From Desulfatibacillum alkenivorans DSM 16219 (GTDB taxonomy: Bacteria > Desulfobacterota > Desulfobacteria > Desulfobacterales > Desulfatibacillaceae): a stretch of 64,000 nucleotides of DNA. Position numbers and translations under genes: made by a program. The stretch covers positions 509 through 64,508 of the forward strand of contig NZ_FQZU01000018.1 in assembly GCF_900142135.1 (NCBI RefSeq), in the 5' to 3' direction. Below, piece after piece: positions 45,787 to 63,740 of this stretch (its first letter is position 1; each line of letters begins with the position of its first letter). Below the pieces are notes generated by a model, which saw nothing but the letters and a program-made list of their open reading frames with translations, was not told where the DNA came from and did no database searches.

Positions 45787-45828
45787 AGAACCCTCCATCA
45801 GGGCGGAACTCCCCTCCTCAAGTTTCGC

Positions 45829-47082
45829 TCACCAAGGTTTGCTAAATAGAAATCTTGCCTGTTTGGGGGCGTTGAACAGGGCCATGGCGGCCTGGGATTG
45901 GAGTGAAAACCAGGGGCGGCGGAGCGGGTCCGGAAGCAGATTGGGCCTGGCGCCCAAGCGGTCCTGAACCACGTTGACGGAGCAATAGGCGGCGTTCAGT
46001 TTTTTCGCCATGGTCAGGCAGTCCATGGCGGCCAGGGGCGGGTCCTCTTCAAACCCGATTATAAAATGGGCGCCCGCCTCAATCCCTTGTTCCTGAAGCA
46101 GCCTGAAAGCCTGGTGAAAAACCTCGTCGCTAACATTTTTTCCCAGCGCTTGCCGCGTTAAAGCAGAAGGGCTTTCCACGCCGATCTGAACCATTAGGAA
46201 CCCGCCTTTTTTCAGGACTTTGGCGAACGCCGGGGTGATTTGGTCGGCCCGCAGATAGCCTCGCAGGGCGAAGGAATAGCGGGACAGCAAATCCAGCACT
46301 TCCATGCCCCTGCTCAGTTCCGCCCCAAAGGTCATGTCCCTCAGGTATATTTGGCGGGCTTCCAGGGTTTTCAGAAGATTCAGCTCCTTTTCGATTTCCG
46401 CAAGATTTCTGGTTTTGTATCCCAGGCCGTCCAGCCCGGAGTTGCAAAAGGAGCATTTATAAGGGCATCCGAAATCGGTCAGCAGCGAATGGAAGACTCC
46501 CTTCCATAAAGGCAGCTTGTATAAGGCGTTGTCCACCAGGTTGTGGGGGGTGACTCCCATGGAATATTCCCCGCCTTTAGGCGGAGGGTCGGGCGCCCGG
46601 TCCCTGGTCCGCAAACGTCCTGAGGCCTTTCCCTTCAGGATAAACTCGGGCAATTCCGGAGCGGTGAAGTCCAGGGCCAGAGCATCGATAAAAGGATAAT
46701 CCTCAAAGGGAAAATCCGGATCAAGGGCGGCTTCCCCCCCTAAAATCACGCGGGTTTTTTCATTCGCTATTTTCTTAAGAAAGACCATGTCTTCTTGAAA
46801 GGACAGGGTGGAAGCCAGGCAATAGATTGCCTCCGGCTGGTACGCCTGGACGATTTTCCGCGCCTGTTTGGCGGGCGTCTGTTGGGCCGCGGCGTCCAGG
46901 ATCATGAACCGGGCGCGGCCTCCAAGTTGGGCCGCCTGGCATAAAAGGTCAATAGGCTGCCAGTAATAATTGGCCTTGGGGCGGGTGGAGCAGTAATAAT
47001 CCCGTAAGACCGGGGAGGACGCCGGCGGGTTGAGCAGCAGCACCCTGGGCAGGGAGCTTATGGCCAAGGCTCCGGCGTTCAT
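45829..47082 (-). CDS. Radical SAM protein (third of three)
   Basis: 417 residues. The N-terminal part (LLLNPPASSPVLRDYYC, ILDAAAQQ, VILGGEAALDPDF) resembles B12-binding Rossmann domains of the radical SAM B12 class. CPYKCSFC (about 210) binds the SAM cluster. The rest of the TIM barrel follows (AGAHFIIGFEEDPP). Its start overlaps the stop of the preceding gene by 4 bp (ATGA), so the two are coupled. Substrate unknown. Confidence 0.8.
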   Translation of the reverse strand: MNAGALAISSLPRVLLLNPPASSPVLRDYYCSTRPKANYYWQPIDLLCQAAQLGGRARFMILDAAAQQTPAKQARKIVQAYQPEAIYCLASTLSFQEDMVFLKKIANEKTRVILGGEAALDPDFPFEDYPFIDALALDFTAPELPEFILKGKASGRLRTRDRAPDPPPKGGEYSMGVTPHNLVDNALYKLPLWKGVFHSLLTDFGCPYKCSFCNSGLDGLGYKTRNLAEIEKELNLLKTLEARQIYLRDMTFGAELSRGMEVLDLLSRYSFALRGYLRADQITPAFAKVLKKGGFLMVQIGVESPSALTRQALGKNVSDEVFHQAFRLLQEQGIEAGAHFIIGFEEDPPLAAMDCLTMAKKLNAAYCSVNVVQDRLGARPNLLPDPLRRPWFSLQSQAAMALFNAPKQARFLFSKPW

Positions 47083-48494: not shown

Positions 48495-48503
48495 GGCGTC
48501 AAA

Positions 48504-49997
48504 TTAGAGCGTCCAGGGAGTTTTCATCCGGACGCCGGCAACCAGGATTTTTTCCGCAATGGAGGCTGCAACCCTTTCGGCCGGGAATCCGGCGAACAGG
48601 GTCTTCATTCTGGCTTTGGCCACGGGCCTGTATAGCTTGACTCCCAGGCGAAGCCACCAGGGAGCGGGGAAATCCTCGAATTTGCGATCCAGGCACAGGC
48701 TTGGAAAATACAGGTTGTCCAACGTGCGCTTTAAAGCCGGGTCAAGATAGGCGACGTTGACGCGGCTCCAGTCGTAATTTCCCCATTCCTGCAGGCTTTC
48801 AGGCGGCTTGAATCCGTAGTTGTCAATGACCTCATCCCACATGGAGGTTCCGGGAAAAGGCAGAAAATTGTAAATGGGAGACAGCCTGGCGTTGGGATTG
48901 TCCTCCATGATTCGAAACATCACCTTGACCGTTTTTTTCAGGTCCGCCAGGGTTTCTCCGGGCAATCCGGAAAGCCAGGAGTAAAAAATATAGATGCCAA
49001 ACCCGCTCCATAACTTATTGGCCTTCAGCAGCATGGGCACGGTATGGGGCTTGTTGACATAGTTGAGAATTTTAGGGCTGCCTGACTCCGCTCCCACGGA
49101 AACCCGCTGGAGACCGCTTTTCTCCAGATCCTGCAAGCCCGCTTGGTCGAACTTCAGCATGCTGGGCACGTCCACGCCCTGGATTTGCCAATAAAACTGG
49201 CGGGACTGATTTTTCAAGGCGTCGACCACGGCGGCGCTTCGTTTTCTATTCAGGAAAAAATTGTCGTCAACCAGGTACACGCCGTCCAGGTTCATGGAAT
49301 CCCGGGCCCAGAACATGCGCTCCAGGGTTTTTTCCGCGTTCATGGCGCGGAAGCGATGATTTCCCGACTGGCCCGTGTGATAGCAGTACCTGCACCGGTG
49401 CGCGCACCCCCTGGAGCTTTCCAGGTTGATCATGCGCTTGCCCCGATAGACCTGCACGTAGTCTTCCACATTCACCAGGTGGTAAGGGGGCAGGGGCAGG
49501 GAGTCCAGGTCCACGGGCGGACGCAATTCGTTTTGTACAATTTTTCCGTCCTGTTTGAACCACATCCCCCGGACGCCTTTCAGGGATTTTCCCGCGGACA
49601 ATCTGTCCATGGCTTCCAAAAGGGTTTCCTCGCCGTCTCCTATGACCGCCATGTCTATGTGGGGGTCCTGGAGGGTTTCCTGAGGGCTTAAACTGGGGTG
49701 ATTGCCTCCCCATAGGACCGGAATATCACTGTGTTCCTTGATAAAACGGGATACGGCCCAGGCCCTGGCCACCGGCTGCCCGCTCATGACCGACAGGCCC
49801 GCGAACAAGGGGCCCCCCGCCAGCTCCCTTTTTAATCTGGCCTGCCAATCGGATTCGATCCGAAGGTCAATGATGGAAAATGAATAATGCTTCGCCGCCA
49901 GAGAGGCTGTTTGGATCAGCCCCAAGGGAAGATGGGGTTTGTCGCGAACCACATCCATGTCCCCTATGTAAGGATAAATCAATACTGCATCTGCCAT
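48504..49997 (-). CDS. Radical SAM protein with B12-binding-like domain (first of three)
   Basis: 497 residues. The N-terminus has HLPLGLIQTASLAAKHY and LWGGNHPSLSPQE (Rossmann part). CAHRCRYC (about 203) binds the SAM cluster. VDDNFFLNRKRS and VSVGAESGSPKILNYV are typical barrel motifs. No strong ribosome site is seen before the ATG at 49997. First gene of a three-gene radical SAM operon. Product unknown; lipid or small-molecule methylation or ring formation is possible. Confidence 0.83.
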   Translation of the reverse strand: MADAVLIYPYIGDMDVVRDKPHLPLGLIQTASLAAKHYSFSIIDLRIESDWQARLKRELAGGPLFAGLSVMSGQPVARAWAVSRFIKEHSDIPVLWGGNHPSLSPQETLQDPHIDMAVIGDGEETLLEAMDRLSAGKSLKGVRGMWFKQDGKIVQNELRPPVDLDSLPLPPYHLVNVEDYVQVYRGKRMINLESSRGCAHRCRYCYHTGQSGNHRFRAMNAEKTLERMFWARDSMNLDGVYLVDDNFFLNRKRSAAVVDALKNQSRQFYWQIQGVDVPSMLKFDQAGLQDLEKSGLQRVSVGAESGSPKILNYVNKPHTVPMLLKANKLWSGFGIYIFYSWLSGLPGETLADLKKTVKVMFRIMEDNPNARLSPIYNFLPFPGTSMWDEVIDNYGFKPPESLQEWGNYDWSRVNVAYLDPALKRTLDNLYFPSLCLDRKFEDFPAPWWLRLGVKLYRPVAKARMKTLFAGFPAERVAASIAEKILVAGVRMKTPWTL

Positions 49998-50443
49998 TGG
50001 TTTCCCGAATCCCCCCTCCAGGTGAGTCTTGGATTAGTTTTAGGTCCATGGCCGTTGAAAGTCAATCGTGGAATTGGACAGGTCACAATTTTGGCGGATT
50101 CGACAAGAAATTGGCATGGTTTTGGGTGTTTTGTCTTTGTAACCGTCTTATTTTTTATCAACTATTGATAAGCAAGCGGGCTTGCGCGGTATTTTTTAAA
50201 TTGGCCTGAATATTGCTTCTACAGTGTTCACATGAAATTTTTATTTCGGACATAGCGGCGATTTTGTGAAATCTTGTCCGGCTTTTCAGGGTATTGCGGG
50301 AAGACGCGGCCAAATCGCCAATGGGGCCGGGAATGGATTTTCCCATGTTTATAATGCGTTGTGAGGCCAAATACTTGACAATGCAACCTTTGAATCCGGA
50401 TGCAGGATGGTCGAAAAAAAACTAATGATGATTGGAGCCTAAA
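49998..50443. other. Divergent region between the radical SAM genes and the chemoreceptor gene
   Basis: Holds a sigma-54 site at 50202-50217 and a long AT-rich leader. Plus-strand open frames here have no protein-like sequence. Confidence 0.5.
50202..50217 (+). promoter_or_regulatory. Sigma-54-type promoter for the chemoreceptor gene
   Basis: TGGCCTGAATATTGCT matches TGGCAYRN4TTGCW with one mismatch. GG (50203-50204) and GC (50215-50216) are separated by exactly 10 bp. About 230 bp upstream of the receptor ATG. Confidence 0.6.
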
Positions 50444-52738
50444 ATGGAGAGTAATTCCTTCTGGCAACGAATGACTGTAGGCAAACGAATTGCATTTGGC
50501 TTTGCCGTGGTTTTGGTTTTGCTTACGGCCGTAGGGCTGCTGAGTTTCACCGGGGTAGGCGGTATAGTACGCAACGCCGGCATGGTGATAGACGGCAACA
50601 AGCTGGACGGCGTTTTGGCTCAACGCGAGGTGGATCACCTGAACTGGGCCGGATCCGTCAACGCGTTGCTTACGGACGAAAATATCACGGAACTGCATGT
50701 GGAGACCGACCCCCACCAATGCGGTTTCGGCAAATGGCTTTATGGGGAAGGGCGTAAAAATGCCGAAGCTCTGGTTCCCTCCCTGGCGCCGATTATCAAG
50801 CGGATTGAAGAGCCCCATGCCAAACTGCACGAATCAGCCATCTCCATTGGCAAGGCGTATCAGCCTGCGGATCCGAATTTGCCCGCCTATTTGCAGGCTC
50901 GCCAGATAGATCATCTTAAGTGGATGGAAACCATTGATGATTTATTCCTGGAAAACCATGCAAAGTTGGATGTGATCACCGATGATCATCAGTGCGCTCT
51001 GGGCAAGTGGCTTTACGGAGAGGAAGCCAAGCAGGCGGTGGCGAGAAATCCTTCTTTAGCGCCCCTGCTTAAGGCGTTGGAGGAGCCTCACAGGCAGCTT
51101 CATGAATCCGCAAAGCTGATTCAATCCGAGTACCGGCAAATCCATCCCGGGCTGATGGTCATGTTGCAGCAAAGGCTGGACGACCACAGGGTTTGGGCCG
51201 CAACAGTGTCTCAGGCCATTCTGGAGCGTAAAAATTCGTTGGATGTACAGACCGATCCCGCCAAATGCGCCTTTGGCAAGTTTTTGCAGTCCAAAGAAGC
51301 TCAGGAGTACATGGCTTCGTTTCCGGCTTTAAAACAGGCTTTGGACGCCTGCAAAGCGCCCCATGAAGCCTTGCACAGATCAGCCATGGACATCGATGCT
51401 TCTTTAAAAGCCGGAGACGCCTTCTCCGCCCGGGATGTATACACCATGGTGACTTTGCCGGCCTTGGAAGAGGTGGGAAAATACTTTAAACAGGCCATCG
51501 ACGCGGAAGCCGTATTGATGGACGGGCGCGATAAGGCTTTGCAAGCCTATCGTACACAAACCCTGCCCGCTTTGGAAAAAACCGAGGCGGCCATGGAGGT
51601 TTTGCACCATGAAGCGGCGGCCCTGCTGGATGGCCAGCGGGAAGCCAATAAAATATACGCATCCCAGACCATGCCCAGCCTGAGGACGGTTCAGGAGCTG
51701 CTGGGGGAAATCCGTCAGGAGGCCAAGAAAAACATCATGACGGACGTAGTCATGCTGGACGCCGCCCAGGGCACGCAAAGAAACGTCAGCATCGTGGGGC
51801 TTGCAGCGATCATTGCCGGACTATTTCTGGCGATAGTCATTGCACGTGGCATTGTCAATGTGCTTACAAGAATCAGCCAAAATTTGGGTGAAGGCGCCGA
51901 TCAGGTGGCTTCGGCTTCCAATCAGGTGGCCGGCTCCAGCCAGTCTTTGGCCGAAGGCGCCTCCAAGCAGGCTGCGTCCCTGGAGGAAACCTCCTCCTCC
52001 ATGGAGGAAATGGCCTCCATGACCGTGCGCAACTCGGAAAACGCCAATCAAGCCGATGTGCTTATGCAACGAACCAAGAGCGTGGTGGAGAAGGCCAGCC
52101 AGACCATGGAGGATCTCACCGGCGCCATGGAGGGAATTTCCAACGCCAGCGCTGAAACCTCAAAGATTATCAAGACGATTGACGAGATAGCCTTTCAGAC
52201 GAATTTGCTGGCTTTGAACGCCGCCGTGGAAGCGGCCAGGGCGGGGGAGGCAGGGGCCGGATTTGCGGTCGTTGCGGACGAAGTGCGCAATCTGGCCGTC
52301 AGGGCCGCCGAGGCCGCCAAAAACACAACGGAACTGATCCAAGGCACGGTCAAGCGCGTGGAAGACGGCGCCCAATTGCTTGACTCCACAACCGAGGCCT
52401 TTGGCGAAGTGGCCGAAACCACCATCAAGGTCGGGGAGATCGTAGGCGAGATCGCCGCCGCCTCCAATGAGCAGACGCAGGGCTATGAGCAAATACGCAA
52501 GGCCGTGTCTGAAATGGACAAGGTTACGCAGAGTACGGCTGCCAATTCCGAGGAATCCGCCAGCGCAGCCGAAGAATTAAACGCCCAGGCCGAGCAGATG
52601 AAACAAATCGTTGAGGAACTGATGGTTTTGGTGGGGGGAAACTCCTCCGGCAAAGCCGTTTCCAGGAGGGCGCTCAAGGGGCAGGAAAGAAAAATGCTGG
52701 AAGCGCCGGAAAGCCGCCCTGCTTTAGGCACGGCCTGA
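50444..52738 (+). CDS. Methyl-accepting chemotaxis protein with three CZB-type zinc-binding domains
   Basis: 764 residues. One membrane span at 16-38 and a second at about 448-472 enclose a sensor region made of three repeats of about 92 residues. Each repeat has the CZB pattern of one Cys and three His: H65/C93/H125/H129, H157/C184/H216/H220, H248/C275/H307/H311. Spacing is nearly constant (27-28, 32, 4). The signalling domain is classic (EIAFQTNLLALNAAVEAARAGE near residue 590). No clear HAMP domain follows TM2. CZB domains usually lie in the cytoplasm and sense zinc or hypochlorous acid; here they would be periplasmic. A TTG at 50432 is in frame, but ATG 50444 has GGAG upstream. Confidence 0.88.
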   Translation: MESNSFWQRMTVGKRIAFGFAVVLVLLTAVGLLSFTGVGGIVRNAGMVIDGNKLDGVLAQREVDHLNWAGSVNALLTDENITELHVETDPHQCGFGKWLYGEGRKNAEALVPSLAPIIKRIEEPHAKLHESAISIGKAYQPADPNLPAYLQARQIDHLKWMETIDDLFLENHAKLDVITDDHQCALGKWLYGEEAKQAVARNPSLAPLLKALEEPHRQLHESAKLIQSEYRQIHPGLMVMLQQRLDDHRVWAATVSQAILERKNSLDVQTDPAKCAFGKFLQSKEAQEYMASFPALKQALDACKAPHEALHRSAMDIDASLKAGDAFSARDVYTMVTLPALEEVGKYFKQAIDAEAVLMDGRDKALQAYRTQTLPALEKTEAAMEVLHHEAAALLDGQREANKIYASQTMPSLRTVQELLGEIRQEAKKNIMTDVVMLDAAQGTQRNVSIVGLAAIIAGLFLAIVIARGIVNVLTRISQNLGEGADQVASASNQVAGSSQSLAEGASKQAASLEETSSSMEEMASMTVRNSENANQADVLMQRTKSVVEKASQTMEDLTGAMEGISNASAETSKIIKTIDEIAFQTNLLALNAAVEAARAGEAGAGFAVVADEVRNLAVRAAEAAKNTTELIQGTVKRVEDGAQLLDSTTEAFGEVAETTIKVGEIVGEIAAASNEQTQGYEQIRKAVSEMDKVTQSTAANSEESASAAEELNAQAEQMKQIVEELMVLVGGNSSGKAVSRRALKGQERKMLEAPESRPALGTA

Positions 52739-52784
52739 TCCCCCAACAATGACATAAACGGCGTTCCATTATATGAGGGAATAT

Positions 52785-52823
52785 ACCGCGGCCGGGCTGA
52801 CCGGCCGCGGTTTTCATGTTTTT
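52785..52823 (+). terminator. Terminator of the chemoreceptor gene
   Basis: Perfect 11-bp stem (52785-52795 / 52801-52811, accgcggccgg / ccggccgcggt), 5-base loop, then a T-rich tail. Confidence 0.85.
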
Positions 52824-53044
52824 AGGTCCTTATTTTATCTGAAATATCAGTGATTATATTGCATTGTGATTAGGCCTTTCATAACGAGATCCTCCGCAAT
52901 CAAAAGCCATGCCTCCAGCCTTGCAGAACGCAGCTTGAGCCAAGATGGTGTTTAAAAACATCCGGAAAGCTGAATGGTTGCTTTGCCTTCCCGCTAAAAG
53001 ATGATATGAAGTACTATAACGATCAGTTATTATGAGGTAATATA
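52824..53044. other. Leader of the hybrid kinase gene
   Basis: No gene seen. A 5-bp inverted repeat with a 5-bp centre (53016-53030, ataac / gttat) lies just before the ribosome site and could be an operator, but is short. Confidence 0.35.
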
Positions 53045-55042
53045 GTGGAAAGCCATCCAACCCAAGATTCATATCAGGACATCCTCAAGCAGTTGGAGGA
53101 GGAGAAGAAGCTCCGCCTGGAAGCCGAGGAGACTGCCGCCGATTTGGAGGAAAGGCTGGACCATGTGTTTGATATGATTCCCGCCGGGATCTATGAAATC
53201 GACTTCAGAACAGGCGGAATCTCCAATGTGAATGACGTCATGTGCGCCTATTCAGGATATACCAGGGAGGAGTTTTTAAACCTTAAACCATGGGACTTGC
53301 TGACTCCTGAAAGCAGGGAACTGTATGAGCAAAGAATGGAGGATTTTTTATCCGGAAAAGAGATTTCCGCCGAAGTGCACTATACCATCCGCACGCGAAG
53401 CGGCGAGGAATTACGATGCCTGTTGAACAACCGCTTCGTTTATAAAGACGGCCAGCCTGTGGGAGCCGTGGTCATTGTCAGGGACGTAACGACCGAGTGG
53501 CGGGCGCAGGAAACCTTGCGATCTCAAGCAATGGCTTTGGAGCAGAGTTTTGATGGAATCGGCATCTTTACTTTGGAGGGCGAGGTCATTTTCGTCAATC
53601 AGGCCTGGGCGGACATGCACGGTTATGAAACCGCTCAGGAACTGACCGGCAAAAATCTCCGAACATTTCATTCGCCCGATCAGTATGAATCGCAGATCCG
53701 GTTTAATCTGACGGACCCTGTATACGACGGCGCCAATGACGCCCAGGTGACTCATCTTAAAAAGGACGGCGCTGAGTTTCCCACCCGCATGAGCACCTCT
53801 ATTATTAAGGACGACTCCGGCAAGCATGTGGCCCTGTTGGCCATCGCCAAGGATATTACCCATTCTCTGCGAATGGAGGAACGGCTTCGCCATGCGCAAA
53901 AGATGGAGGCCATAGGGGTTCTTGCAGGTGGGATAGCACATGATTTCAATAATATACTTCATCCATTGATGGGGTATGCGGAGTTGGCTTTGGAAGACAT
54001 CCCTTCCGGAAATCCGGCAAGCGAATGCGTCCGGGAGATCGTCCGCGCCACAGGGCGGGCCAAAAGCCTGGTCTCTCAGATTCTCAGCTTCAGCCGATTC
54101 GAAAAGGAGGAGCAAAAGCCCATTAATCTGAGCAACGTCGTCAAAGAAGTCCTGGCTCTGATTCGCGCAAGCCTTCCGGCGGCCATCCGGATTCAGGAGG
54201 AATTTGAGTCGGCGCCCTTTCTGATAATGGGCAATCCGACCCAGGTTCATCAAGTGGTGATGAACTTGTGCACCAACGCTTATCAGGCCATGAAGGAAAG
54301 CGGGGGCTTGCTCAAGGTTTCCCTGAAAATGGAATCCCGCGTTCCCGGCGACATGGCTTCTTTACCCTCCGTTACACTAAGAGAGTACGCCAAACTGGAG
54401 ATCCAGGATACCGGAGGCGGCATGGAGCCTCATGTGGCGTCCAGGATTTTTGAGCCTTATTTCACCACAAAGCCCAAGGGGAAAGGAACCGGCTTGGGCT
54501 TGGCCATGGTGCACACCATCATGACTCAGCATAAGGGAGAGGTTTGTGTGGATACCCTTCCCGGATACGGCAGCACTTTCACCCTGTATTTTCCCGTATT
54601 GCACATGGAGGGCCTTTCCGAAGGGCCACGGGAAACAGTCCAGGCGCAGGGAGGCGAGGAAAAAATCCTGCTGGTTGACGACGAAGATTCCATAACCATG
54701 CTGCTGGAAAGGGCCCTGGGACGCCTGGGATACCGGATTGACGCCTACACCAGCAGCGCCGCCGCTCTTGAATCATTTTCCGCCGATCCCGATGGATTCG
54801 ACCTGGCTATTTTGGACGTTTCCATGCCGGAAATGACCGGGGACGCCTTGCTGAAAAAAATCAAGGAAATCAGACCGGATTTTCCGTGCATCCTGTTCAC
54901 CGGCAACGACCATTTTATGAGCAAGGACCGTGCGTTGGAATTGGGAGCGTGCCAACTCCTTGCCAAGCCCCTGCGCACCCAAGCCATGGCCGCCGCCATT
55001 CGCCAGGCCTTGGACAGCGGAGATGCGCAACCTTCTGAATAA
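53045..55042 (+). CDS. PAS-type hybrid sensor histidine kinase with C-terminal receiver
   Basis: 665 residues, GTG start behind TGAGGT. An N-terminal coiled coil, then two PAS domains (about 35-150 and 160-275) with GAVVIVRDVTTEW and ALLAIAKDITHSL ends. HisKA phospho-His in GGIAHDFNNILHPLMGYAEL (about residue 298), HATPase boxes (NLCTNAYQAM, DTGGGM, GKGTGLGLAMVH), and a receiver with phospho-Asp in LAILDVSMPEMTG. No membrane spans, so a cytoplasmic sensor. No output gene is adjacent on this strand. Confidence 0.92.
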   Translation: MESHPTQDSYQDILKQLEEEKKLRLEAEETAADLEERLDHVFDMIPAGIYEIDFRTGGISNVNDVMCAYSGYTREEFLNLKPWDLLTPESRELYEQRMEDFLSGKEISAEVHYTIRTRSGEELRCLLNNRFVYKDGQPVGAVVIVRDVTTEWRAQETLRSQAMALEQSFDGIGIFTLEGEVIFVNQAWADMHGYETAQELTGKNLRTFHSPDQYESQIRFNLTDPVYDGANDAQVTHLKKDGAEFPTRMSTSIIKDDSGKHVALLAIAKDITHSLRMEERLRHAQKMEAIGVLAGGIAHDFNNILHPLMGYAELALEDIPSGNPASECVREIVRATGRAKSLVSQILSFSRFEKEEQKPINLSNVVKEVLALIRASLPAAIRIQEEFESAPFLIMGNPTQVHQVVMNLCTNAYQAMKESGGLLKVSLKMESRVPGDMASLPSVTLREYAKLEIQDTGGGMEPHVASRIFEPYFTTKPKGKGTGLGLAMVHTIMTQHKGEVCVDTLPGYGSTFTLYFPVLHMEGLSEGPRETVQAQGGEEKILLVDDEDSITMLLERALGRLGYRIDAYTSSAAALESFSADPDGFDLAILDVSMPEMTGDALLKKIKEIRPDFPCILFTGNDHFMSKDRALELGACQLLAKPLRTQAMAAAIRQALDSGDAQPSE

Positions 55043-55058
55043 CCCATAGTTTTCCTTC

Positions 55059-56291
55059 TTAAATCAATGACCTCTTATTGTTAACCTCCGGATCGTAGCA
55101 GTCCACGGGCAGGCGGCCGGCCCGGGCGATGCAGGCGTTGCAGAAGGAGCATTTGGGGCCGCTCCCGCCGTTCAATACATTCCTGAACAAATACGGGTCC
55201 GCAATCATGGCGCGGCCTACGGACACGGCGTCGCAGGCGCCGCCGTCAATGGCCTGTTCCATATGCTCCCGGGTTAAAAAGCCTCCCACGCAGATGACCG
55301 GAATGCGCAACTTTTTCTTGAACTCCCGGGCGTAATGCAGGTTGAATCCTTCCTGGGCGGGCCATATCCGGTCGAAGATAAAGGCCAGGGGATGGCGAAA
55401 CCAAGTCACGCCAAAACGCCGGAACCAGGGCAGTTGATCTCCTATCCCTTCCTCCATCAATCCTTTGAAGAAAGGCCCGAAATTCCCCCGGATCATGGGA
55501 AATCCGGATTCATAATGCCCCACGGTGACCTCCACGGCGTCCAATCCCTCATCTTGCAGGATGCGGGCGACTTCCGTCAGTTGAGCCGTGGAAAGGCCTT
55601 GCCGGCCTGGGAGGTAGTCGGCTCCGTTGATTTTCATGATGACGGTCAGGTTGGTGCGCTCCCGGATTCCCCAGTAGATTTCCAAAAGCAGGCGCATGCG
55701 TTTGACAAAACTGCCCCCGTATTGGTCGTCCCGGCGATTGGTATAAGGCGTGAGAAACTGATTGATAAGATAACCGTGGCCTGCATGTATCTGCACGCCG
55801 TCAAATCCGGCCTGCTCGCAGATTTCGGCGGAGTGCACGTAGGCTTCCACCGCCTGTTTGATTTCCTGCCGGGTGAGGGGTCTTGGTTTGACGCCCATGA
55901 CCTTTTCCCCCACGCCGGAGGCGGAGACGGCCGAGTCCAGGCCCATGGCTTTGGCCATAACCTGCCTGCCGCAATGATTGATCTGCCCGAACAGCAGGCC
56001 GCCCTGGCTGTGGACAAGCTCCGCCCATTGGCTCAGGCCTTCAATCTTATCCACATGATCGGCGCCGCACATGCGGTAGGTGGATTTGCCTTCCTCGGTC
56101 ACGTACAGATTGCCGGTGATGATGAGGGGCGTGCCGGCTTGGGCGATGGGCTTGTAAAAGCCCAGCAGTTCGTCGGAGACGAATCCGTCCTCGGTGGCGC
56201 GGGTTTCGGACGTGGCCGTCTTGAATACCCGGCCGTTCGCAGTCAGTTTTCCAATTATTAAAGGTTGAGCCAGGATGGAGGATGATTGCAT
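55059..56291 (-). CDS. NADH:flavin oxidoreductase / Old Yellow Enzyme family
   Basis: 410-residue FMN-dependent TIM-barrel reductase that likely reduces activated C=C bonds with NAD(P)H. ATSETRATEDGFVSDELLGFY (substrate/FMN region), GQINHCGRQ, and the conserved HAGHGYLINQFLTPYTNRRDDQYGGS stretch (catalytic His, Tyr) are intact. CSFCNACI plus a later Cys near the C-terminus may hold an Fe-S cluster as in 2,4-dienoyl-CoA reductase. Start chosen at ATG 56291 with AAGGA upstream. It is the third gene of the LuxE/LuxC-like operon, 22 bp after the LuxC-like stop. Confidence 0.85.
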   Translation of the reverse strand: MQSSSILAQPLIIGKLTANGRVFKTATSETRATEDGFVSDELLGFYKPIAQAGTPLIITGNLYVTEEGKSTYRMCGADHVDKIEGLSQWAELVHSQGGLLFGQINHCGRQVMAKAMGLDSAVSASGVGEKVMGVKPRPLTRQEIKQAVEAYVHSAEICEQAGFDGVQIHAGHGYLINQFLTPYTNRRDDQYGGSFVKRMRLLLEIYWGIRERTNLTVIMKINGADYLPGRQGLSTAQLTEVARILQDEGLDAVEVTVGHYESGFPMIRGNFGPFFKGLMEEGIGDQLPWFRRFGVTWFRHPLAFIFDRIWPAQEGFNLHYAREFKKKLRIPVICVGGFLTREHMEQAIDGGACDAVSVGRAMIADPYLFRNVLNGGSGPKCSFCNACIARAGRLPVDCYDPEVNNKRSLI

Positions 56292-56313
56292 GGTTGGAGT
56301 CCTTTCCGGCGGT

Positions 56314-57984
56314 TCAGCCGTTTTTCCAGTCCACAAGTTCGCTTAATGCCATCATGCCGTCGTGGCTCATACCCGGAAACATGGTCCCGCTATGGCCCAG
56401 ATCCACAATGTTGCTGACTCCCCGGGCGGCGATTTCGTCCCGCAGCCGCTCCTTTACGGAAAGGGGCGACATGCTGACGGTGGAAACGCCGGAATGCAAA
56501 TAGGGCAGGGCGCTTTCCAGTCTATCCAGCCTTCGGACAATGATCATGCGCTGCATGGTGACGGCGGACAAGGGAATTTCCCTGTCCACCAAAACGACCC
56601 CGGAGCAAAAGCGGCCCTCCTCGCTGTTGACGAACCAGTCTCCGTCGATAAGCACGCCGCGCATGACCCGTTTGATCTCTCCGACGAAAAACGGGTCCAC
56701 ATAATTGGGAGACGCCCGGTCAAAGGCGGCCAGCGCCCTTTGCAGGGCCTGGGCGTAGGATTTGGCCTGATCTTCCTCGGCTTCTATGTAATGAATCTGG
56801 GAGGCGATGCAGGCTTTTTGATTGGCGACCAGGGAATCCGCGGCGGCCGCGGCCGCCAGGTCTTCCAGGCTTTCAGCAAAGGCTTCCCGGCCGATCATGG
56901 AGACGCCATAGCGGGGGTTGAAGGTGAGCACCTTGGTGAATAAGGCCCGCTTTTTGACCGATTCCACGGCGTCAGGCGCTCCCCACACCACAATCCTGTC
57001 AAACGCGTTGGGCGCAAAAAAGGCGTCTTCCACGGCGGCCTCTCCTCCCGGCCAGTAGACGATGGACAAATGCCTAGTTACGGGATGATCCGGGGCCGCC
57101 GCCAGAAGCCCCAGAGACAATAATGCGCCGGGCAGGGTCGCCCCGCAAGGGGATTTGATCACCGCCGCCGATTTGGTGAGGATAGCCCGCAAAGCCGAAA
57201 TAAAGGGGATCTGGGGCGCATTGCCGGCCGTGATATGCAGTTGCCGGGTTGGCATGGCCCGCATGGACGGCTTGCGCTTCTCCCAGGCAGGGGCCTTTGC
57301 CCCCAGGGCCTGGGCTGCAATCAAATGCACGGGCGCAGGCAGGGGCGCGGCGCCGGGCAATTCCACCCAGCCGTCCAAAAAGCGTGAACCCGCCTGTCCC
57401 CATACGCCAAGGTCCTTATCCACCATGACTTTCGCGGAATGAGGATCGATCAGCATGCCCAGGGCGTCGAAGCCCAGGTTATGCCATTGGTCAGGAAGTT
57501 GGGCCGTGTGGATCGTGAGGTCCCGGAGGGAGTTCAGGAGTGCTTGTTCCTGGACGAACACGGCGCCAAGGCTTTTTAAAAGCTCCAGGATCTCCTGAAA
57601 GGGCGTGTTGTATAACTCGCAAATGGCGGAAAAGTCGTTTTCCAATACCTCCCCGGGCGAGAAAACAGGCATGACTGAGTATTGATAGGCGCCGGCCGGG
57701 CGCATGGTTTTGCGGTTGATGACAGGTTCCCGCAATACCTGAACCTTTTCCAGACGCACATGACTGGGAAACGCTCCCGCCGGAGCAACTCTTTCCGCCG
57801 CGTCAAAGGCCTGGAGTATGTCGTCAAAATTTACCCGTGAGGGCGCGCGAAGGCTCCCCTTTATTAAAAAGGGGAGCCGCATGACGTTGTTTTCGCCGGA
57901 ATGCAAAAGGTCATATTTGGTGCAAAGATCCTGCATGTTCGAATCGATAAGGCGCCAGCCTTCTTCCCTTAAGTCGTCTTTCAT
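56314..57984 (-). CDS. LuxC-like acyl reductase
   Basis: 556 residues of the LuxC / fatty acyl-CoA reductase family (aldehyde dehydrogenase fold). The likely cofactor region has LHITAGNAPQIPFISALRAIL (about 249-269). The catalytic-position Cys392 is in NQKACIASQ, matching QQACSSPQ of LuxC. A non-LuxC N-terminal extension of roughly 130 residues is present. The known reaction of LuxC is NADPH-dependent reduction of an acyl group taken from LuxE to fatty aldehyde. ATG 57984 has GGAGGGG upstream. It sits 21 bp after the LuxE-like gene in one operon. No luxA, luxB or luxD is seen. Confidence 0.82.
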   Translation of the reverse strand: MKDDLREEGWRLIDSNMQDLCTKYDLLHSGENNVMRLPFLIKGSLRAPSRVNFDDILQAFDAAERVAPAGAFPSHVRLEKVQVLREPVINRKTMRPAGAYQYSVMPVFSPGEVLENDFSAICELYNTPFQEILELLKSLGAVFVQEQALLNSLRDLTIHTAQLPDQWHNLGFDALGMLIDPHSAKVMVDKDLGVWGQAGSRFLDGWVELPGAAPLPAPVHLIAAQALGAKAPAWEKRKPSMRAMPTRQLHITAGNAPQIPFISALRAILTKSAAVIKSPCGATLPGALLSLGLLAAAPDHPVTRHLSIVYWPGGEAAVEDAFFAPNAFDRIVVWGAPDAVESVKKRALFTKVLTFNPRYGVSMIGREAFAESLEDLAAAAAADSLVANQKACIASQIHYIEAEEDQAKSYAQALQRALAAFDRASPNYVDPFFVGEIKRVMRGVLIDGDWFVNSEEGRFCSGVVLVDREIPLSAVTMQRMIIVRRLDRLESALPYLHSGVSTVSMSPLSVKERLRDEIAARGVSNIVDLGHSGTMFPGMSHDGMMALSELVDWKNG

Positions 57985-58005
57985 GATCCCCTCCACGGTC
58001 GTTCA

Positions 58006-59433
58006 TCAGGCGTTGATTTTGGCCATAATGCCCCCGCATCCTTTGATCTCCCGTCCCGGGCTTCTGGCAATGGAAATGATGGCCGGTCCGCTCCGGCCGC
58101 ACGGGCACCCCTCATTTACGCGCCGTACATGGTCCCCGGTAATCAAAAAGCCGGGATAGCTTTCGGCGAAGGGGTCGATAATTCCCAAAGTCCCTGTCAC
58201 ATCGTCTCCGTCCATAGGCCTAAGCTCAGGATCCAGGATGACGGTTTCAAAATGGGGCGGTACGTGGTATCGCCCCTCCGGGCAACGCAGCATAAGCCCC
58301 TGGATTTCCGTCATGGAATACCCTTCGGCGATGAAATTGCGCTCTATGCCCAGGCTTTCGCCGATGAGTCCTACCAATTCCTCTTCGGGAATACGATTGC
58401 CGTCAAAGGATTTCCAGCCTCCCCCGAAAAATACGGCGCTGCCCTTTTTTAGTCGTAAATTCAGCTTATGGGCCTTGACCTCCTGACAAATTTCCAGCAA
58501 TAAATAGGGAGTTCCAAAAATAATGGCCTTCCGCCCCCGTTTGGAGGATTTTTCCAAGGCGCTCAGCATGCGATGATAATTGGCTTTTTTGTCGTGGACC
58601 GTGGTGTTTAAAAAGGCGTCGATGACCGCCTGCTCCTCCGGAGCGGCCGCCCCCCGGATGACGCCCCGGACAGCCATGGGAGATAAGGGCGCATCATAAA
58701 GAAAAAAGGCGTTGCGGCAATACTTGGCCAGTTCCTGGCCCACAAGCTGAATGCCCTGGGCGCCGCCTGAAAAATTGCAGAAGTATCCGTCGAAATCCCT
58801 AAAAATTAAGCGGCCGTAACGATCGGCCAGGCTCAGCAGGGAGTCTGGTTCGATATTTTGGCAGAGCAGCTTCAAAGCCAGTTTTTTCCAGGAGGGAATC
58901 ACCCCCTGATCCGCGGCCGCCATAGGCGTATACAGCAGCGAATTTTTTAAAAAATGCCGCCAGGTGCTTTCATCCCTGGGGACGAAAGACATATTCCCGG
59001 ACGTGCCCGAGGAAAAAACCAGATGGATTCCTTCTTTTTCCAGAAGATCCAGCCACTGGTCCATGTTCCGGGCCTCTCCTGAAGCCTTAGAGGGCCGGAC
59101 GTCGCCCACCCTGGCGAGCCAACGATTCATGCCCCGGAAGTCCCTGTCGTCCAAGAAGCCCTGGGGATAGGATTTGAAGATGTCGTCGGGAATCATGCAG
59201 TGTTCGATGATTTGGTCCAGGCCGGGATTGTCGCCGTTCATGCCGGCCATACTGCAGACCTTGGCGAAATAGGGGATGTTGCGCCGATACCTGAGATAAT
59301 TGGCCGACGCCGCCTGCTCCCTGAGTTTTAGGGCTTTGTCCTGGTCGCAGGTTTTGGTTGCCGCCCATTGGACCATGATTTTTTTCAGGCCGTCCTGGGC
59401 TTGCTTAAGGGCTTGATCCGGATGTGCAGTCAT
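58006..59433 (-). CDS. LuxE-like acyl-protein synthetase
   Basis: 475 residues of the LuxE / acyl-adenylating family (ANL superfamily). The P-loop-like SSGTSG (141-146) binds ATP/AMP; later motifs GTPYLLLEI, IAEGYSMTEIQG and FLITGDHV are ANL-like. A C-terminal CPCGRSGP resembles that of phenylacetate-CoA ligases. LuxE activates a fatty acid and passes it to LuxC. Start chosen at ATG 59433 (AGGAG 8 bp upstream). First gene of the minus-strand operon. Confidence 0.8.
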   Translation of the reverse strand: MTAHPDQALKQAQDGLKKIMVQWAATKTCDQDKALKLREQAASANYLRYRRNIPYFAKVCSMAGMNGDNPGLDQIIEHCMIPDDIFKSYPQGFLDDRDFRGMNRWLARVGDVRPSKASGEARNMDQWLDLLEKEGIHLVFSSGTSGNMSFVPRDESTWRHFLKNSLLYTPMAAADQGVIPSWKKLALKLLCQNIEPDSLLSLADRYGRLIFRDFDGYFCNFSGGAQGIQLVGQELAKYCRNAFFLYDAPLSPMAVRGVIRGAAAPEEQAVIDAFLNTTVHDKKANYHRMLSALEKSSKRGRKAIIFGTPYLLLEICQEVKAHKLNLRLKKGSAVFFGGGWKSFDGNRIPEEELVGLIGESLGIERNFIAEGYSMTEIQGLMLRCPEGRYHVPPHFETVILDPELRPMDGDDVTGTLGIIDPFAESYPGFLITGDHVRRVNEGCPCGRSGPAIISIARSPGREIKGCGGIMAKINA

Positions 59434-59473
59434 AGGCGGTCTCCTGGGGCGGGAAAAAGGGTTGAAATTCTTT

Positions 59474-59514
59474 TGAACATGGTCCATGATAATGAACATG
59501 GTTCATGCTGTCAA
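59474..59514 (-). promoter_or_regulatory. Promoter with double TetR-type operator between the divergent operons
   Basis: On the minus strand a perfect TTGACA (59514-59509), 17-bp spacer and TATCAT (59491-59486). Two operator copies are seen: TGAAC-ATG-GTTCA (59493-59505, perfect) within the spacer and TGAAC-ATG-GTCCA (59474-59486, one change) just after the -10, 19 bp apart. The TetR gene at 60709 is the natural candidate regulator. No convincing plus-strand promoter was seen. Confidence 0.75.
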
Positions 59515-59592
59515 CGAAATTGTGCGTGATTTCCAATACCGAGCTGTTTTTTTCAATCATCCAACAGCCCACAGCAGGCGCTAAGGGGGAGT

Positions 59593-60666
59593 ATGAAAGA
59601 GGACGTGTACACCAGGCTGGGAGAAAGGCTGAATAAAAATCCTACAAGAATGCCTCTGGTTCCGGAGGTTTTGGAGTTTCTTCAATCGATTTTCAGTGAG
59701 GAGGAGGCCCAGGTGGGCGCCGATTTTCCGTTGGGCTCCCATCCGGTGGAGGTTTTGGCGGAAGCTATGGCGCGCGACCCCGGGGAGTTGCAGGACATGC
59801 TGGAATCCATGGCGGATAAGGGCCTGGTTTTTTCCAAGGACAGGGATTCTGGCGTGCGGGAGTATTCTTTGCCTCCCTTTATGCCCGGCTTGATTGAGCT
59901 GCAACTCATGCGCGGCAGGGAGGATTATTTCGAGATTCGCCAGGCCAAAATGATTAAGAAGATGCTGGACGGGGTGGAGGAAGCGGTCAAGGGGCTTTTC
60001 ATGATGCCGGAAAAGGCCCGCCGTGTGATCAAGCCGGCCTTGCGCACCTTGACCGTTGAGCAGGAGTTGCCTTTGGAGTCCGGGGTTCAACCTTACGAAC
60101 GGGTGGCCGAGGTTATCAAGGCCGAAAGCTCGTTCGCCGCCGCGGTCTGTCATTGCCGGCAGCAGGCCAAGTTGACGGGGGATCCCTGCAAGGTGAAGGA
60201 CGCGCCTTCCCACACCTGTTTATACTTCGGAAGCGCGGCGGATTATGTGGTGGATCGCGGATTCGCCTCCAGGGCCACCCGGGAGGAGTGCATGGAAATC
60301 CTGGAAGCCAGCGAAAAAGCCGGGCTGGTGCATAATGTGAGCAATTTTGACGGCGATAACATCGTGCTTTGCAATTGCTGCGGATGCTGCTGCGACTTCA
60401 TGATCAAGATGAAAAAATACCGGGGCGTACGCATGGTGTATCCTTCCAATTTCGCCGCCAGAATAGACGATGATCTTTGCATTGGATGCGGCGAATGCCT
60501 GGATCGGTGCCAGGTGGCGGCCATCTCCCTGGACGGGGACGCCGCCGTAATCGCCGGGGAATATTGCATTGGATGCGGCAACTGCGCTACGGTGTGCCCC
60601 AGAAAGCCATTAGCATGGTTCGGTGTGCGGAAAAAGCGCCTCCGCCCCGGCCGGATTTCATCGTAG
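59593..60666 (+). CDS. Large [4Fe-4S] protein with winged-helix-like N-terminus (family copy 2)
   Basis: 357 residues, homologous to the proteins at 4488-5510 and 62529-63740. N-terminal helical/winged-helix part (EVLAEAMARDPGELQDMLES), middle VCHCRQQAKL and CNCCGCCC cluster, then CIGCGECLDRC and CIGCGNCATVCP ferredoxin motifs. It lacks membrane spans and a signal. GGGGGAG lies before the ATG. First gene of the plus-strand operon facing the LuxE/LuxC-like operon; probably an electron carrier for its redox steps. Confidence 0.8.
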   Translation: MKEDVYTRLGERLNKNPTRMPLVPEVLEFLQSIFSEEEAQVGADFPLGSHPVEVLAEAMARDPGELQDMLESMADKGLVFSKDRDSGVREYSLPPFMPGLIELQLMRGREDYFEIRQAKMIKKMLDGVEEAVKGLFMMPEKARRVIKPALRTLTVEQELPLESGVQPYERVAEVIKAESSFAAAVCHCRQQAKLTGDPCKVKDAPSHTCLYFGSAADYVVDRGFASRATREECMEILEASEKAGLVHNVSNFDGDNIVLCNCCGCCCDFMIKMKKYRGVRMVYPSNFAARIDDDLCIGCGECLDRCQVAAISLDGDAAVIAGEYCIGCGNCATVCPRKPLAWFGVRKKRLRPGRISS

Positions 60667-60708
60667 GGCTTGGGGTTTAGGGTATATTTCAATTTTTGGA
60701 GATTTTTT

Positions 60709-61347
60709 GTGACCATCAAACGATTCAGGGAATTGCGTAAATCGCAAAAAGAAGACCGCAGACAAGCCATTACGGACACGGCGGAGGAAATTCTCACGGC
60801 CAAGGGGATCGATGGGGTGGCCATTCGCAGTGTGGCCAAGGCCGCTGGTCTTTCCGTGGGCTCGATCTACGTGTATTTCAAGAATAAGGAAGAGCTGCTT
60901 TTAAGCATTCTTCTCAGGCATCTTGCGGCCTTGGACGCGGCTTTTGAGGAAAGAATCCAGGAGCAGGATCCGGTAAAAGCCTTCAAAGCCATGGCTCATG
61001 ATTACAAGGACTATTATCTGCAATGTGGACGGTACATCAGCGCCATGGGGTATTTTTACGAGCAGGGCGATAAGACAAAGGATATCAACCCGGATCTGAT
61101 GGAGGAGCTAAACGCCCTGCTGAACCGGATTCTGGAAAAGATCCATCTTATTCTGGCGCGTCCGGCCATGGCGCCCATGCTGAATGGGCTGGAGCCCGCC
61201 AGGGGCATACCCATTATTTGGAGCATGATTACCGGCGTGGCGGAGCTGACCCTGGCTTCGGCCCGTAGCGCCCAGTCGGGCTTTGACTTTGAACAGGTAT
61301 TGAACGACGCCATCCATGTTTTGACGGGGAGGGGAAACGCCTCCTGA
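60709..61347 (+). CDS. TetR-family transcriptional regulator
   Basis: 212 residues from the GTG at 60709 (GGAG upstream). The N-terminal HTH is clear: AIRSVAKAAGLSVGSIYVYFKNKEELL (residues about 42-68). The C-terminal all-helical ligand domain has a hydrophobic pocket region, and fatty or acyl ligands are common in the family. It is placed to bind the double palindrome at 59474-59505 and repress both operons. Its longer reading frame upstream to 60670 has no HTH similarity. Confidence 0.9.
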   Translation: MTIKRFRELRKSQKEDRRQAITDTAEEILTAKGIDGVAIRSVAKAAGLSVGSIYVYFKNKEELLLSILLRHLAALDAAFEERIQEQDPVKAFKAMAHDYKDYYLQCGRYISAMGYFYEQGDKTKDINPDLMEELNALLNRILEKIHLILARPAMAPMLNGLEPARGIPIIWSMITGVAELTLASARSAQSGFDFEQVLNDAIHVLTGRGNAS

Positions 61348-61364
61348 CAAAGGAGAACAGCTTG

Positions 61365-62519
61365 ATGACTCAAGTGGCCTTGATGCGGTGCAAGGAGTAT
61401 GATTTCGAAGTCTTGAAGGACGTCGTCGCCAGGGGGATGACGGCGGCCGGATTCGATCTTTCTTCATTGAATGGTTTGAGGGTCGCCCTGAAGCCCAATT
61501 TGTTGATGCCCAGCAACCCGGACAAGTGCATTGTCACTCATCCCGTGTTTTTTCAAACGGTTGCGTCCATTGTAAAGGATTACGGCGGCCATCCTGTTCT
61601 GATCGAGAATCCCAATTTTTTCTCCCTGGAAAACACGCTCAAAAAGGCGGGCTACGGCCCCATTGTGGAGGAGCTGGGCATCGAAGTCGCCGATCCCGTC
61701 CCCACCCGGCCCTTGCACTGGGAGCACGCCAAACTGTACCGGACCATTGATATTTCCGCCGTCTATTTTGAAGCGGACGTCATCCTGAGTCTGGTGAAGT
61801 TCAAGACCCATTCCTATTCCTACATAACCGGCGCAGTAAAGCACTGGTTCGGGACGATTCCCGGTTTGAAAAAGTCCCGGATGCACATGCGCGTGCCCGA
61901 CCAGATGGATTTCGCCGATTATTTGCTGGACCTTTACGGCGGCCTGAAGTACGGATTGGGGGACGGCAGGAAAATATTTCATATTGTAGACGGCGTGCGC
62001 TCCATGGAAGGGGAGGGTCCGGGTCCCACGGGCTCGCCCAGGGATTGGGGCGTGGTCATCGCCGGGGAGGACGCCATCGCCGTTGACTGGGTGGCGGTAA
62101 AGACTGCAGGCCTGGATGCCGATAAGGCGTATACCCTGGTGCAGGGATTTAAGAGGGATTTCGGCCCCAACTCGCCGGAGGACATCCAGGTGTTGGGGGA
62201 AAGCATACAGGATTTGGCATGCCGGTTTACACCGCCGAAAAACACCGTTTACGGCGGAGTGGTGTGGCCCCTGACGTCCAAAACGGTTAAAAACTGGCTG
62301 GTGGAAAAGCCGGCCCCGAACCCGGAAAAATGCGTTTTATGCTATCAATGCATGAAAACCTGTCCGGCGGAAGCCATCTCCAAGCCTCGGGAAGGCAAAA
62401 AAACGCCGGATTTTGACTATCGAAAATGCATCCGTTGCTTTTGCTGCATGGAGATTTGCCCGGAAGCCGCCATCGGCTTGAAAAAAGGGGCGCTGCAATG
62501 GTTGTTTTCATTTAAATAG
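61365..62519 (+). CDS. DUF362 domain protein with C-terminal ferredoxin domain
   Basis: 384 residues. DUF362 occupies about 1-300 (ALKPNLLMPSNPDKCIVTHP, HSYSYITGAVKHWFGTIPG). The C-terminus has two [4Fe-4S] motifs, CVLCYQCMKTCP and CIRCFCCMEICP. DUF362-ferredoxin proteins are redox proteins of unclear role in anaerobes. AAGGAG lies about 10 bp before the ATG at 61365 (a TTG at 61362 is also in frame). Third gene of the TetR operon. Confidence 0.85.
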   Translation: MTQVALMRCKEYDFEVLKDVVARGMTAAGFDLSSLNGLRVALKPNLLMPSNPDKCIVTHPVFFQTVASIVKDYGGHPVLIENPNFFSLENTLKKAGYGPIVEELGIEVADPVPTRPLHWEHAKLYRTIDISAVYFEADVILSLVKFKTHSYSYITGAVKHWFGTIPGLKKSRMHMRVPDQMDFADYLLDLYGGLKYGLGDGRKIFHIVDGVRSMEGEGPGPTGSPRDWGVVIAGEDAIAVDWVAVKTAGLDADKAYTLVQGFKRDFGPNSPEDIQVLGESIQDLACRFTPPKNTVYGGVVWPLTSKTVKNWLVEKPAPNPEKCVLCYQCMKTCPAEAISKPREGKKTPDFDYRKCIRCFCCMEICPEAAIGLKKGALQWLFSFK

Positions 62520-62528
62520 GAGATTGCG

Positions 62529-63740
62529 ATGAGCGGCTTGAAAATATACCGGTCCCTGGCCGAGAAATTTGTTTTTAAAAGCATGTTTCCCAACGTGCTT
62601 GTAACCGACTCCCTGCTGGCTTTGGTCAAGTTTTTGTTCGACGAGCAGGAGGCGAAGGTCCTAAACGCCCTTTCCTTTGCGCCCAAACCGGCCAAGACCG
62701 TGGCCCGCTACGCCAACCTGCCTTTGGAGACGGTGCGCCCCATCCTGGAGGACCTGGGAGACCGGTTTATGATCTTGCGCCTGACCATGGCCGGGGTTCC
62801 CGTATACAACCTCCTTCCCCTGGCGCCCGGCATCTTTGAGTCCCAGATGATCCGGAGCAAAAACGATGGGGAAAACGCCTCCTATTACAGGGAATTCGCG
62901 AGGCTGTTCGAGGACGTGTATCACGAATACATGCTCTATTTTAAGGATAAGGCCAAGGGCAAAGACCTGCGCTTCGGCCGGATCGTGCCCATTGAAAAAT
63001 CCCTGGAAGCCACCACAGGCATCATGCCCCTGGCTACGGACAGGTACTCTGAAATCGTAGAGCGGAACCGGAGCTTTTCCCTGGTGGATGTGTGCGCCTG
63101 CCGCACGCATCAGGAATACCTGGGGCAGGGCTGCGGACGGGCCATGCACGCGTGTTCGGCCATGGGCTGGCTGGCGGATTTGGCCATAGACAAGGGCATC
63201 GCCCGGAGGGTTTCCCGGGAGGAGTTCCTGGAAGCCAAAGCCGCCGCCGTAGAAGCCGGTCTGGTGAACATGGTGGACAACCTGGAAGACCCCATGCAGG
63301 TGTGCTCATGCTGCACCTGCTGCTGCGGCGTCATGCGCATCCTCAAGGAATACAACATCCCCACCATTATCGCCAAAAGCCATTTTGAGGCCAGCGTGGA
63401 CGCGGAAAAATGCATCGGCTGCAGCCAATGCGTGGAAATCTGCCCCATGGAGGCCGTCTCCCTGGCGGATAATAAAGCGGTCATCGACCACTCCCGGTGC
63501 ATCGGCTGCGGCCTGTGCGTCCCCAAATGCAGCAAGGCAAAAGCCATCAGCCTCAAGGAGCGCTACGGCCACAAACCGCCGTCCAAGGACGTCCTGGCCT
63601 ACGCGGCCGAGCGGATCGAGGAGCTGAAAGGCATCCAGAAATCCCTGCTGCCCAGGCTTACCTTGGGAGCGGGAAGCCTCTTGTATCAGCTCTCCCCCAA
63701 GCAATTGACCGGTCCTCGGTACAAACCGCCCAAGTCGTGA
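62529..63740 (+). CDS. Large [4Fe-4S] protein with winged-helix-like N-terminus (family copy 3)
   Basis: 403 residues, homologous to copies at 4488 and 59593, and the longest. Winged-helix-like segment near residues 45-90 (PAKTVARYANLPLETVRPIL), VCACRTHQ, Cys cluster CSCCTCCC, and ferredoxin motifs CIGCSQCVEICP and CIGCGLCVPKC. AGGAG precedes the ATG by 7 bp; 9 bp after the DUF362 gene. Last gene of the operon that I can see. Confidence 0.8.
   Translation: MSGLKIYRSLAEKFVFKSMFPNVLVTDSLLALVKFLFDEQEAKVLNALSFAPKPAKTVARYANLPLETVRPILEDLGDRFMILRLTMAGVPVYNLLPLAPGIFESQMIRSKNDGENASYYREFARLFEDVYHEYMLYFKDKAKGKDLRFGRIVPIEKSLEATTGIMPLATDRYSEIVERNRSFSLVDVCACRTHQEYLGQGCGRAMHACSAMGWLADLAIDKGIARRVSREEFLEAKAAAVEAGLVNMVDNLEDPMQVCSCCTCCCGVMRILKEYNIPTIIAKSHFEASVDAEKCIGCSQCVEICPMEAVSLADNKAVIDHSRCIGCGLCVPKCSKAKAISLKERYGHKPPSKDVLAYAAERIEELKGIQKSLLPRLTLGAGSLLYQLSPKQLTGPRYKPPKS

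Follow-up and report, generated by a model that had tools for sequence, protein, structure and literature searches.

The 64,000-nucleotide stretch of Desulfatibacillum alkenivorans DSM 16219 analysed here (positions 509 to 64,508 of contig NZ_FQZU01000018.1; hereafter the window) carries three consecutive genes on the reverse strand, encoding a LuxE-like acyl-adenylating enzyme, a LuxC-like acyl reductase and a flavin reductase of the Old Yellow Enzyme (OYE) type (Table 1). With their likeliest start codons the genes form a block that spans exactly positions 55059-59433, with intergenic gaps of 21 and 22 nucleotides. The Pfam scores of all three genes are far above chance: 75.3 bits for PF04443 in LuxE (cut-off 24.9), where the match covers residues 309-493 of the 497-residue open reading frame and thus its C-terminal part only, 138.9 bits for PF05893 in LuxC (cut-off 21) and 164 bits for Oxidored_FMN (PF00724) in the OYE (cut-off 27). 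The layout and these scores confirm the operon that a preliminary description, made from the letters of the sequence, had proposed. The Pfam matches leave the N-terminal ~300 residues of LuxE and the divergent N-terminal ~230 residues of LuxC uncovered. Ribosome-binding sites and the lengths of orthologues, assessed by eye, favour an ATG start at 59433 for LuxE, at 57984 for LuxC and at 56291 for the OYE. The window genome (G000; 6.47 Mb in 102 contigs) contains one PF05893 and one PF04443 match genome-wide. A PADLOC scan of LuxC and LuxE returned no match, and a terminator scan gave 8 sites, against 8.9 in shuffled sequences.

Table 1. Predicted features of the operon and its surroundings, with coordinates in the window (Fe-S, iron-sulfur).
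Feature	Position	Strand	Remarks
LuxE-like acyl-adenylating/acyl-protein synthetase	58006..59433	-	475 aa; PF04443 5.6e-21; open reading frame opens at 59499
LuxC-like acyl reductase	56314..57984	-	556 aa, long form; PF05893 2.8e-40
OYE-type flavin reductase	55059..56291	-	410 aa; PF00724 7.3e-48
Predicted operon promoter	59486..59514	-	TTGACA-17-TATCAT, 11/12 consensus; reads into LuxE
Operator-like palindrome TGAACnnnGTTCA	59493..59505	.	perfect; in promoter spacer
Second operator-like palindrome	59474..59486	.	one mismatch; 19 bp from first; touches -10 box
TetR-family regulator, probable repressor	60670..61347	+	PF00440 5.6e-14; likely start GTG ~60709, set by comparison with sister locus
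Fe-S protein, two 4Fe-4S motifs	59593..60666	+	transcribed divergently, with the operator on one side and TetR on the other; weak candidate for a redox partner
DUF362 + ferredoxin protein	61362..62519	+	downstream of TetR; association weak; relatives in L009, L024
Second Fe-S protein, same family as 59593..60666	62529..63740	+	association weak

Among solved structures (E <= 0.001), the LuxE-like and LuxC-like proteins match only the two chains of the LuxC-LuxE complex 7xc6. The cysteine of the ACIASQ motif of LuxC aligns with that of QQACFSTQ in 7xc6_A, and the cysteine of the KGCGGIM motif of LuxE with that of KGCSLSM in 7xc6_E. Both cysteines, which we take to be the acyl-carrying catalytic residues, are invariant in the eight sequences of each protein (window included). 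Since both are kept, acyl reduction, the chemistry put forward in the preliminary description, is likely. The LuxE-like protein also contains the motif SSGTSG (SSGTTG in genome G129). Its C-terminus lies nine residues past the cysteine, with no further Pfam domain, and it therefore lacks the C-terminal domain of CoA ligases. In a fold search its model (mean pLDDT 80.1) resembled adenylating enzymes of the PaaK type, with TM-scores of ~0.3 to 0.56 among the 50 matches listed. Pairwise distances of LuxE and LuxC correlate (r 0.88, 28 pairs), a result that common descent alone would also give.

The OYE has a C-terminal C-x2-C-x2-C-x10-C motif that is present in 12 of 12 OYE sequences (window included), together with a HA[GA]HGYL motif present in 11 of the 12 (exception, G004). 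The first three cysteines align with those of two full-length FadH-class enzymes, and the fourth is offset; among solved structures, these two enzymes are related to NCR (6qkg) and 2,4-dienoyl-CoA reductase (DCR; 1ps9). By its flavin domain and its predicted 4Fe-4S cysteines the protein is assigned to the FadH/DCR class, and it shares with FadH, BaiCD and NCR the flavin-barrel family and the C-terminal cysteine cluster. It differs from them in two respects. According to Pfam and the alignment, the protein stops past the cysteine cluster and the FAD/NAD(P)H domain of the class is missing, so that a separate electron donor is likely. Furthermore, the barrel contains an insert of ~40 residues that is seen only in the alignment; a regular expression for this insert returned zero matches.

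No member of the luciferase family PF00296 was found in the window genome (E <= 0.001), while the same search was positive in 10 of 14 control genomes. Likewise, no luxD was found in the operon or among the 13 window genes scanned (44196-63740), although no genome-wide search for luxD was made. The absence of luxA and luxB noted in the preliminary description therefore holds for the genome and that of luxD for the operon and the scanned genes. No luxAB appeared beside the operon in the neighbourhoods scanned in relatives, the genome-wide luciferase search having covered the window genome only. The description of the host as an apparent anaerobe also fits, since Desulfatibacillum is described as a genus of sulfate reducers (PMC5552659). 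Like luxCDABE of luminous Vibrio and Photobacterium (7xc6), the operon has neighbouring genes for members of the LuxE and LuxC families, with both catalytic cysteines retained. It differs by the lack of luciferase in the genome and of luxD in the operon, by the order E-C, by its anaerobic host, by the length of LuxE and LuxC (475 and 556 residues here, 373 and 477 there) and by the added OYE and TetR. A luciferase-free luxE-luxC pair also occurs in the flagellar glycosylation islands of Aeromonas, where it is accompanied by pse genes, glycosyltransferases and ACP (PMC7874193). Sugar-acid or glycosyltransferase neighbours of such a flagellar or glycan island were not found among the 13 window genes. 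Luciferase-free LuxE and LuxC are thus already known from glycan islands, and the combination of a long-form branch with an OYE and TetR is a new variation. An operon of the LuxE-LuxC-OYE-TetR type was not recognisable in the titles and abstract openings listed by searches of the open-licence PMC literature.

Long-form LuxC (>690 bits) was detected in 6 of 389 genomes of the class (G000, G001, G005, G007, G089 and G129) and in 4 of 395 genomes of the phylum (G000, G001, G428 and G463), the two samples being overlapping. The remaining LuxC matches, in 7 class genomes (best 69.1 bits) and 16 phylum genomes (best 91.6 bits), score below 100 bits with partial coverage of the model; among LuxC proteins, those of L027-L029, from clusters judged by eye to be of a sugar or flagellar glycan type, reach 59.6-69.1 bits against the long-form profile. 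Judged from these counts and scores, the long-form subfamily is rare and forms a distinct branch. A scan of contigs with LuxC alone gave one relative, 68% identical, in Desulfatibacillum sp. MAG7. The window LuxC is closer to that of G089, which belongs to another family (60% identity), than to those of G007 and G005 from the same family (54% and 49%), which suggests horizontal transfer.

All eight loci have LuxE and LuxC side by side, and five of them link the pair to the same OYE (69-81% identical), in three arrangements: LuxE-LuxC-OYE (G000, G001 and G007), LuxE-LuxC-SDR-OYE (G005; SDR, short-chain dehydrogenase/reductase) and OYE-LuxE-LuxC (G089). The chance that a single OYE would lie no more than 3 kb away, on the same strand, is p ~0.0005-0.0008 in each of the four genomes computed, values to be read in the light of the shared descent of the loci and of the two OYE copies of G007. 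At the G129 locus, LuxE-LuxC are followed by an unknown gene, an S15-type hydrolase and an SDR, and the companions also include an alpha/beta hydrolase. The G428 and G463 loci comprise TetR, a gene resembling Fe-S nitroreductases (domain scan of G463 alone) and LuxE-LuxC, with a divergent SDR and a full-length BaiCD-like OYE that scores below the BaiCD family cut-off.

Several other genes were observed around these loci. A protein of ~295 residues with no Pfam match lies between TetR and the same OYE in G089 (L025:4924-5805), and another of ~295 residues, likewise with no Pfam match and with a start that looks similar by eye, lies near the OYE in G008 (L097:6030-6932). In the sister metagenome-assembled genome, the operon is followed by TetR and by FadD-like ligase, HadA-like dehydratase, acyl-CoA dehydrogenase-like and thiolase-like genes (L009:11061-16989), a set not present at the corresponding place in the window. 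Corrinoid (B12-binding) and URO-D family proteins are encoded near the SDR-OYE pair of G463 (L101:5865-7657). In other Desulfobacterota, LuxC is contained in frames of 869 and 898 residues right behind the LuxE gene (L031:9330-11939 and L067:9560-12256).

The putative regulatory region lies directly upstream of LuxE (Table 1). The promoter-like site is the best of four consensus matches in 5.8 kb; with an average of 3.3 in shuffled sequences, the argument is its position and not the count. The 19-bp tandem of palindromes recurs upstream of LuxE at 4 of 4 same-family loci, with 1, 1, 3 and 2 mismatches out of 20 in G000, G001, G005 and G007, respectively, and none of 2000 shuffles per locus (base composition kept only) was as good at any of them. 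The motif was taken from the window locus, so that its score there is circular and G005 and G007 provide the fairest tests. The tandem was not found at G129, G463 or G089 (where the stretch tested was upstream of TetR and not directly upstream of the OYE) and was only marginal in G428 (p 0.044). All four family loci encode TetR on the opposite strand; in G005 and G007 it adjoins the operator, and in G000 and G001 the Fe-S gene lies in between. A TetR-family gene is present near 8 of 8 loci, identified through Pfam in G000, G089, G129 and G463 and through sequence similarity in the remaining four, and related TetR genes are present in L009, L023 and L024. Two perfect TGAACnnnGTTCA sites exist genome-wide, the second at C42:77547, and sites with at most one mismatch number 130, against 68 for a control pattern; in the window there are 3 such sites, against a shuffle mean of 1.78, and 27 of 100 shuffles reach 3. 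No clear wider regulon was evident genome-wide among the matches listed. The TetR gene and the tandem palindromes that overlie the predicted promoter are suggestive of a repressor switch, in which TetR would act as the repressor.

We interpret the operon as a TetR-controlled carboxylate reductase module that would convert an acid into an aldehyde at the expense of ATP and NAD(P)H and feed a C=C reductase, a reading that we consider on balance probable, if by a small measure. The aldehyde would probably be made from an organic acid for a purpose other than light. The sequence itself shows the identities of the genes, the conserved cysteines, the layout of the operon, the placement of promoter and palindromes and the recurring linkage, whereas the following activities and their order, like the repressor role of TetR, are our inference. 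The LuxE-like protein would activate a carboxylic acid with ATP and load the acyl group on its own C-terminal cysteine. The acyl group would then be moved onto the LuxC cysteine, where the thioester would be reduced by NAD(P)H to the aldehyde. Finally, the OYE would reduce the product at a C=C bond; in the simplest case the product is an enal and the bond its alpha,beta double bond. At those orthologous loci that have one, the SDR may reduce the aldehyde to the alcohol. The predicted overall reaction (acid, ATP and NADPH giving aldehyde) is the same as that of carboxylic acid reductase (CAR). CAR is one fused polypeptide, whereas two Lux-type proteins are present here.

Several observations weigh against this interpretation. 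Both proteins fail the NCBIfam long-chain equivalogs, LuxC with 111.3 bits for NF052251 (cut-off 750) and LuxE with 70.3 bits for NF052244 (cut-off 550), so that family membership holds but gives no licence to assume a long-chain substrate. The 50 fold matches listed do not include the solved LuxE, which together with the low TM-scores means that the model supports the fold class of LuxE and not a close relation. The AlphaFold model of the OYE (pLDDT 56.6) was too poor to be used. The window genome contains nine OYE matches at E <= 1e-20, and OYE relatives occur with no detected LuxCE in G003, G004 and G006 (60-71% identical) and in G389 (51%), the search in a second class having covered only three genomes. 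A further genome, G008, is 83% complete, and its contig breaks off within an SDR gene next to the OYE, so that LuxCE could be cut off there. Conversely, G129 has no close OYE (best match 34% identical, elsewhere in the genome), and in G428 and G463 the sole OYE of the locus is divergent, ~2.8 kb and ~6.3 kb from LuxE. The window operon has no SDR, and the counts of promoter-like sites and one-mismatch palindromes across the stretch are not above chance. Reduction of a double bond by the added reductase, as proposed in the preliminary description, is plausible and unproven, the OYE not being strictly tied to LuxCE.

A more specific form of the carboxylate reductase reading, which we put forward as tentative and less likely than not, is a relay from acid to saturated aldehyde. 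Here LuxE-LuxC would convert an unsaturated acid to the enal, the substrate of a stand-alone FMN/4Fe-4S OYE that would draw its electrons from Fe-S proteins and not through an NAD(P)H domain of its own. OYE-type enzymes reduce enals far more readily than free enoates. The formation of the enal by LuxE-LuxC would thus make the double bond reducible for the OYE. If true, this relay would be a Lux-derived counterpart of cascades of CAR plus ene-reductase, natural and in an anaerobe.

Alternatively, the operon may be an inducible system that converts an unsaturated acid of external origin (aromatic, terpenoid or other) into the alcohol, for detoxification or electron disposal, with the acid or a derivative freeing TetR from its sites. 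We consider this rather unlikely. The TetR gene and the operator-like sites in the promoter are in agreement with it, as are the patchy distribution and the varied companions, which hint at varied substrates: the alpha/beta and S15-type hydrolases and the SDR in G129, VAO-like and BaiCD-like enzymes in G463 and a GGR-like protein in G428. Against it, the operon has no transporter, and companions that vary between loci may be unrelated.

The supply of saturated fatty aldehydes or alcohols for envelope lipids (ether lipids or waxes), suggested in the preliminary description, appears distinctly doubtful. The chemistry of LuxC and LuxE on fatty acids is established, and this would fit such a supply. 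Against it, the module is a rare one, with 6 positive genomes among the 389 of the class. PF09989, which we take to be the marker domain of Ger/PlsA-type proteins, is present in 18 of 21 genomes tested, in all eight that have LuxCE and in 10 of 13 with no detected LuxCE, and twice in the window genome. Ger and PlsA are reported not to be distinguishable from sequence alone (PMC13274423). The membranes of Desulfatibacillum are reported to consist mostly of ether lipids (PMC5552659), which favours an ether-lipid role, as does the expectation of the authors of the Ger study that more enzymes may take part in diether synthesis (PMC11150832). However, the same study reports that Ger, the PlsA homologue of D. 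alkenivorans, alone led to mono- and dialkyl ethers in Escherichia coli, and its authors propose that the ester bonds of already formed phospholipids are reduced to ether bonds (PMC11150832). The word "aldehyde" is absent from the text of this paper, which also describes D. alkenivorans as lacking genetic tools for gene inactivation (PMC11150832). Two FAD-linked oxidases encoded beside orthologous loci were considered as alkylglycerone-phosphate (alkyl-DHAP) synthases and rejected. The oxidase of L024 (FAD_binding_4 and FAD-oxidase_C domains) is GlcD-like with 470.6 bits, below the equivalog cut-off of 567.9, and its matches to the structures of glycolate oxidase (332 bits) and LctD (282) are much stronger than that to alkyl-DHAP synthase (121). 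The oxidase of L065 resembles VAO and GlcD, and its 39 matches include no alkyl-DHAP synthase. For waxes, the ester synthase family WS/DGAT (PF03007), the only family tested, was found in 0 of 8 LuxCE genomes (of which G007 and G428 are 86% and 85% complete), in 2 of 21 genomes overall (G043 and G064) and in 0 of 14 controls. As Ger makes ethers in E. coli and PF09989 occurs with or without LuxCE, ether lipid supply is probably not the role of the operon; the wax sink is weakened likewise, and the preliminary interpretation as a whole is partly supported. The Ger, PF09989 and WS/DGAT results therefore favour a carboxylate-to-aldehyde module, acting on an acid that may be unsaturated.

Finally, it is very improbable that the OYE is an unrelated enone-stress enzyme sharing the promoter while LuxE-LuxC act alone, as might be argued from the OYE relatives with no detected LuxCE and from G129, because the same OYE is linked to LuxE-LuxC at five loci in three arrangements.

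The Fe-S proteins encoded on the opposite strand were considered as dedicated partners of the operon. This is undercut by the genome itself, in which the protein at 59593-60666 has 42 matches, 15 of them over at least 280 residues (itself included), and with such a large paralogous family its adjacency to the operon means little. Elsewhere in the window, a run of three radical SAM genes occupies 45829-49997 on the reverse strand, ~5 kb from the OYE; two of the three encode B12-binding domains. A chemoreceptor encoded at 50432-52738 has three CZB zinc-binding stretches and an MCP signalling domain, and the repetition of CZB looks unusual.

LuxC and LuxE are known mainly as suppliers of the light reaction. 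A long-form branch associated with an FMN/Fe-S ene-reductase-like enzyme and TetR in anaerobes would show the fatty acid reductase to be a general carboxylate-reduction module, and would provide anaerobic hosts with a new aldehyde-forming enzyme made of two proteins. Ger of D. alkenivorans also performs reductive chemistry on acyl groups in the same genus, but it is a PlsA homologue of a family unrelated to LuxC and LuxE, with phospholipid esters as its proposed target. The question of the role of LuxCE is thereby set apart from that of ether-lipid synthesis, for which the genus has a tested enzyme.

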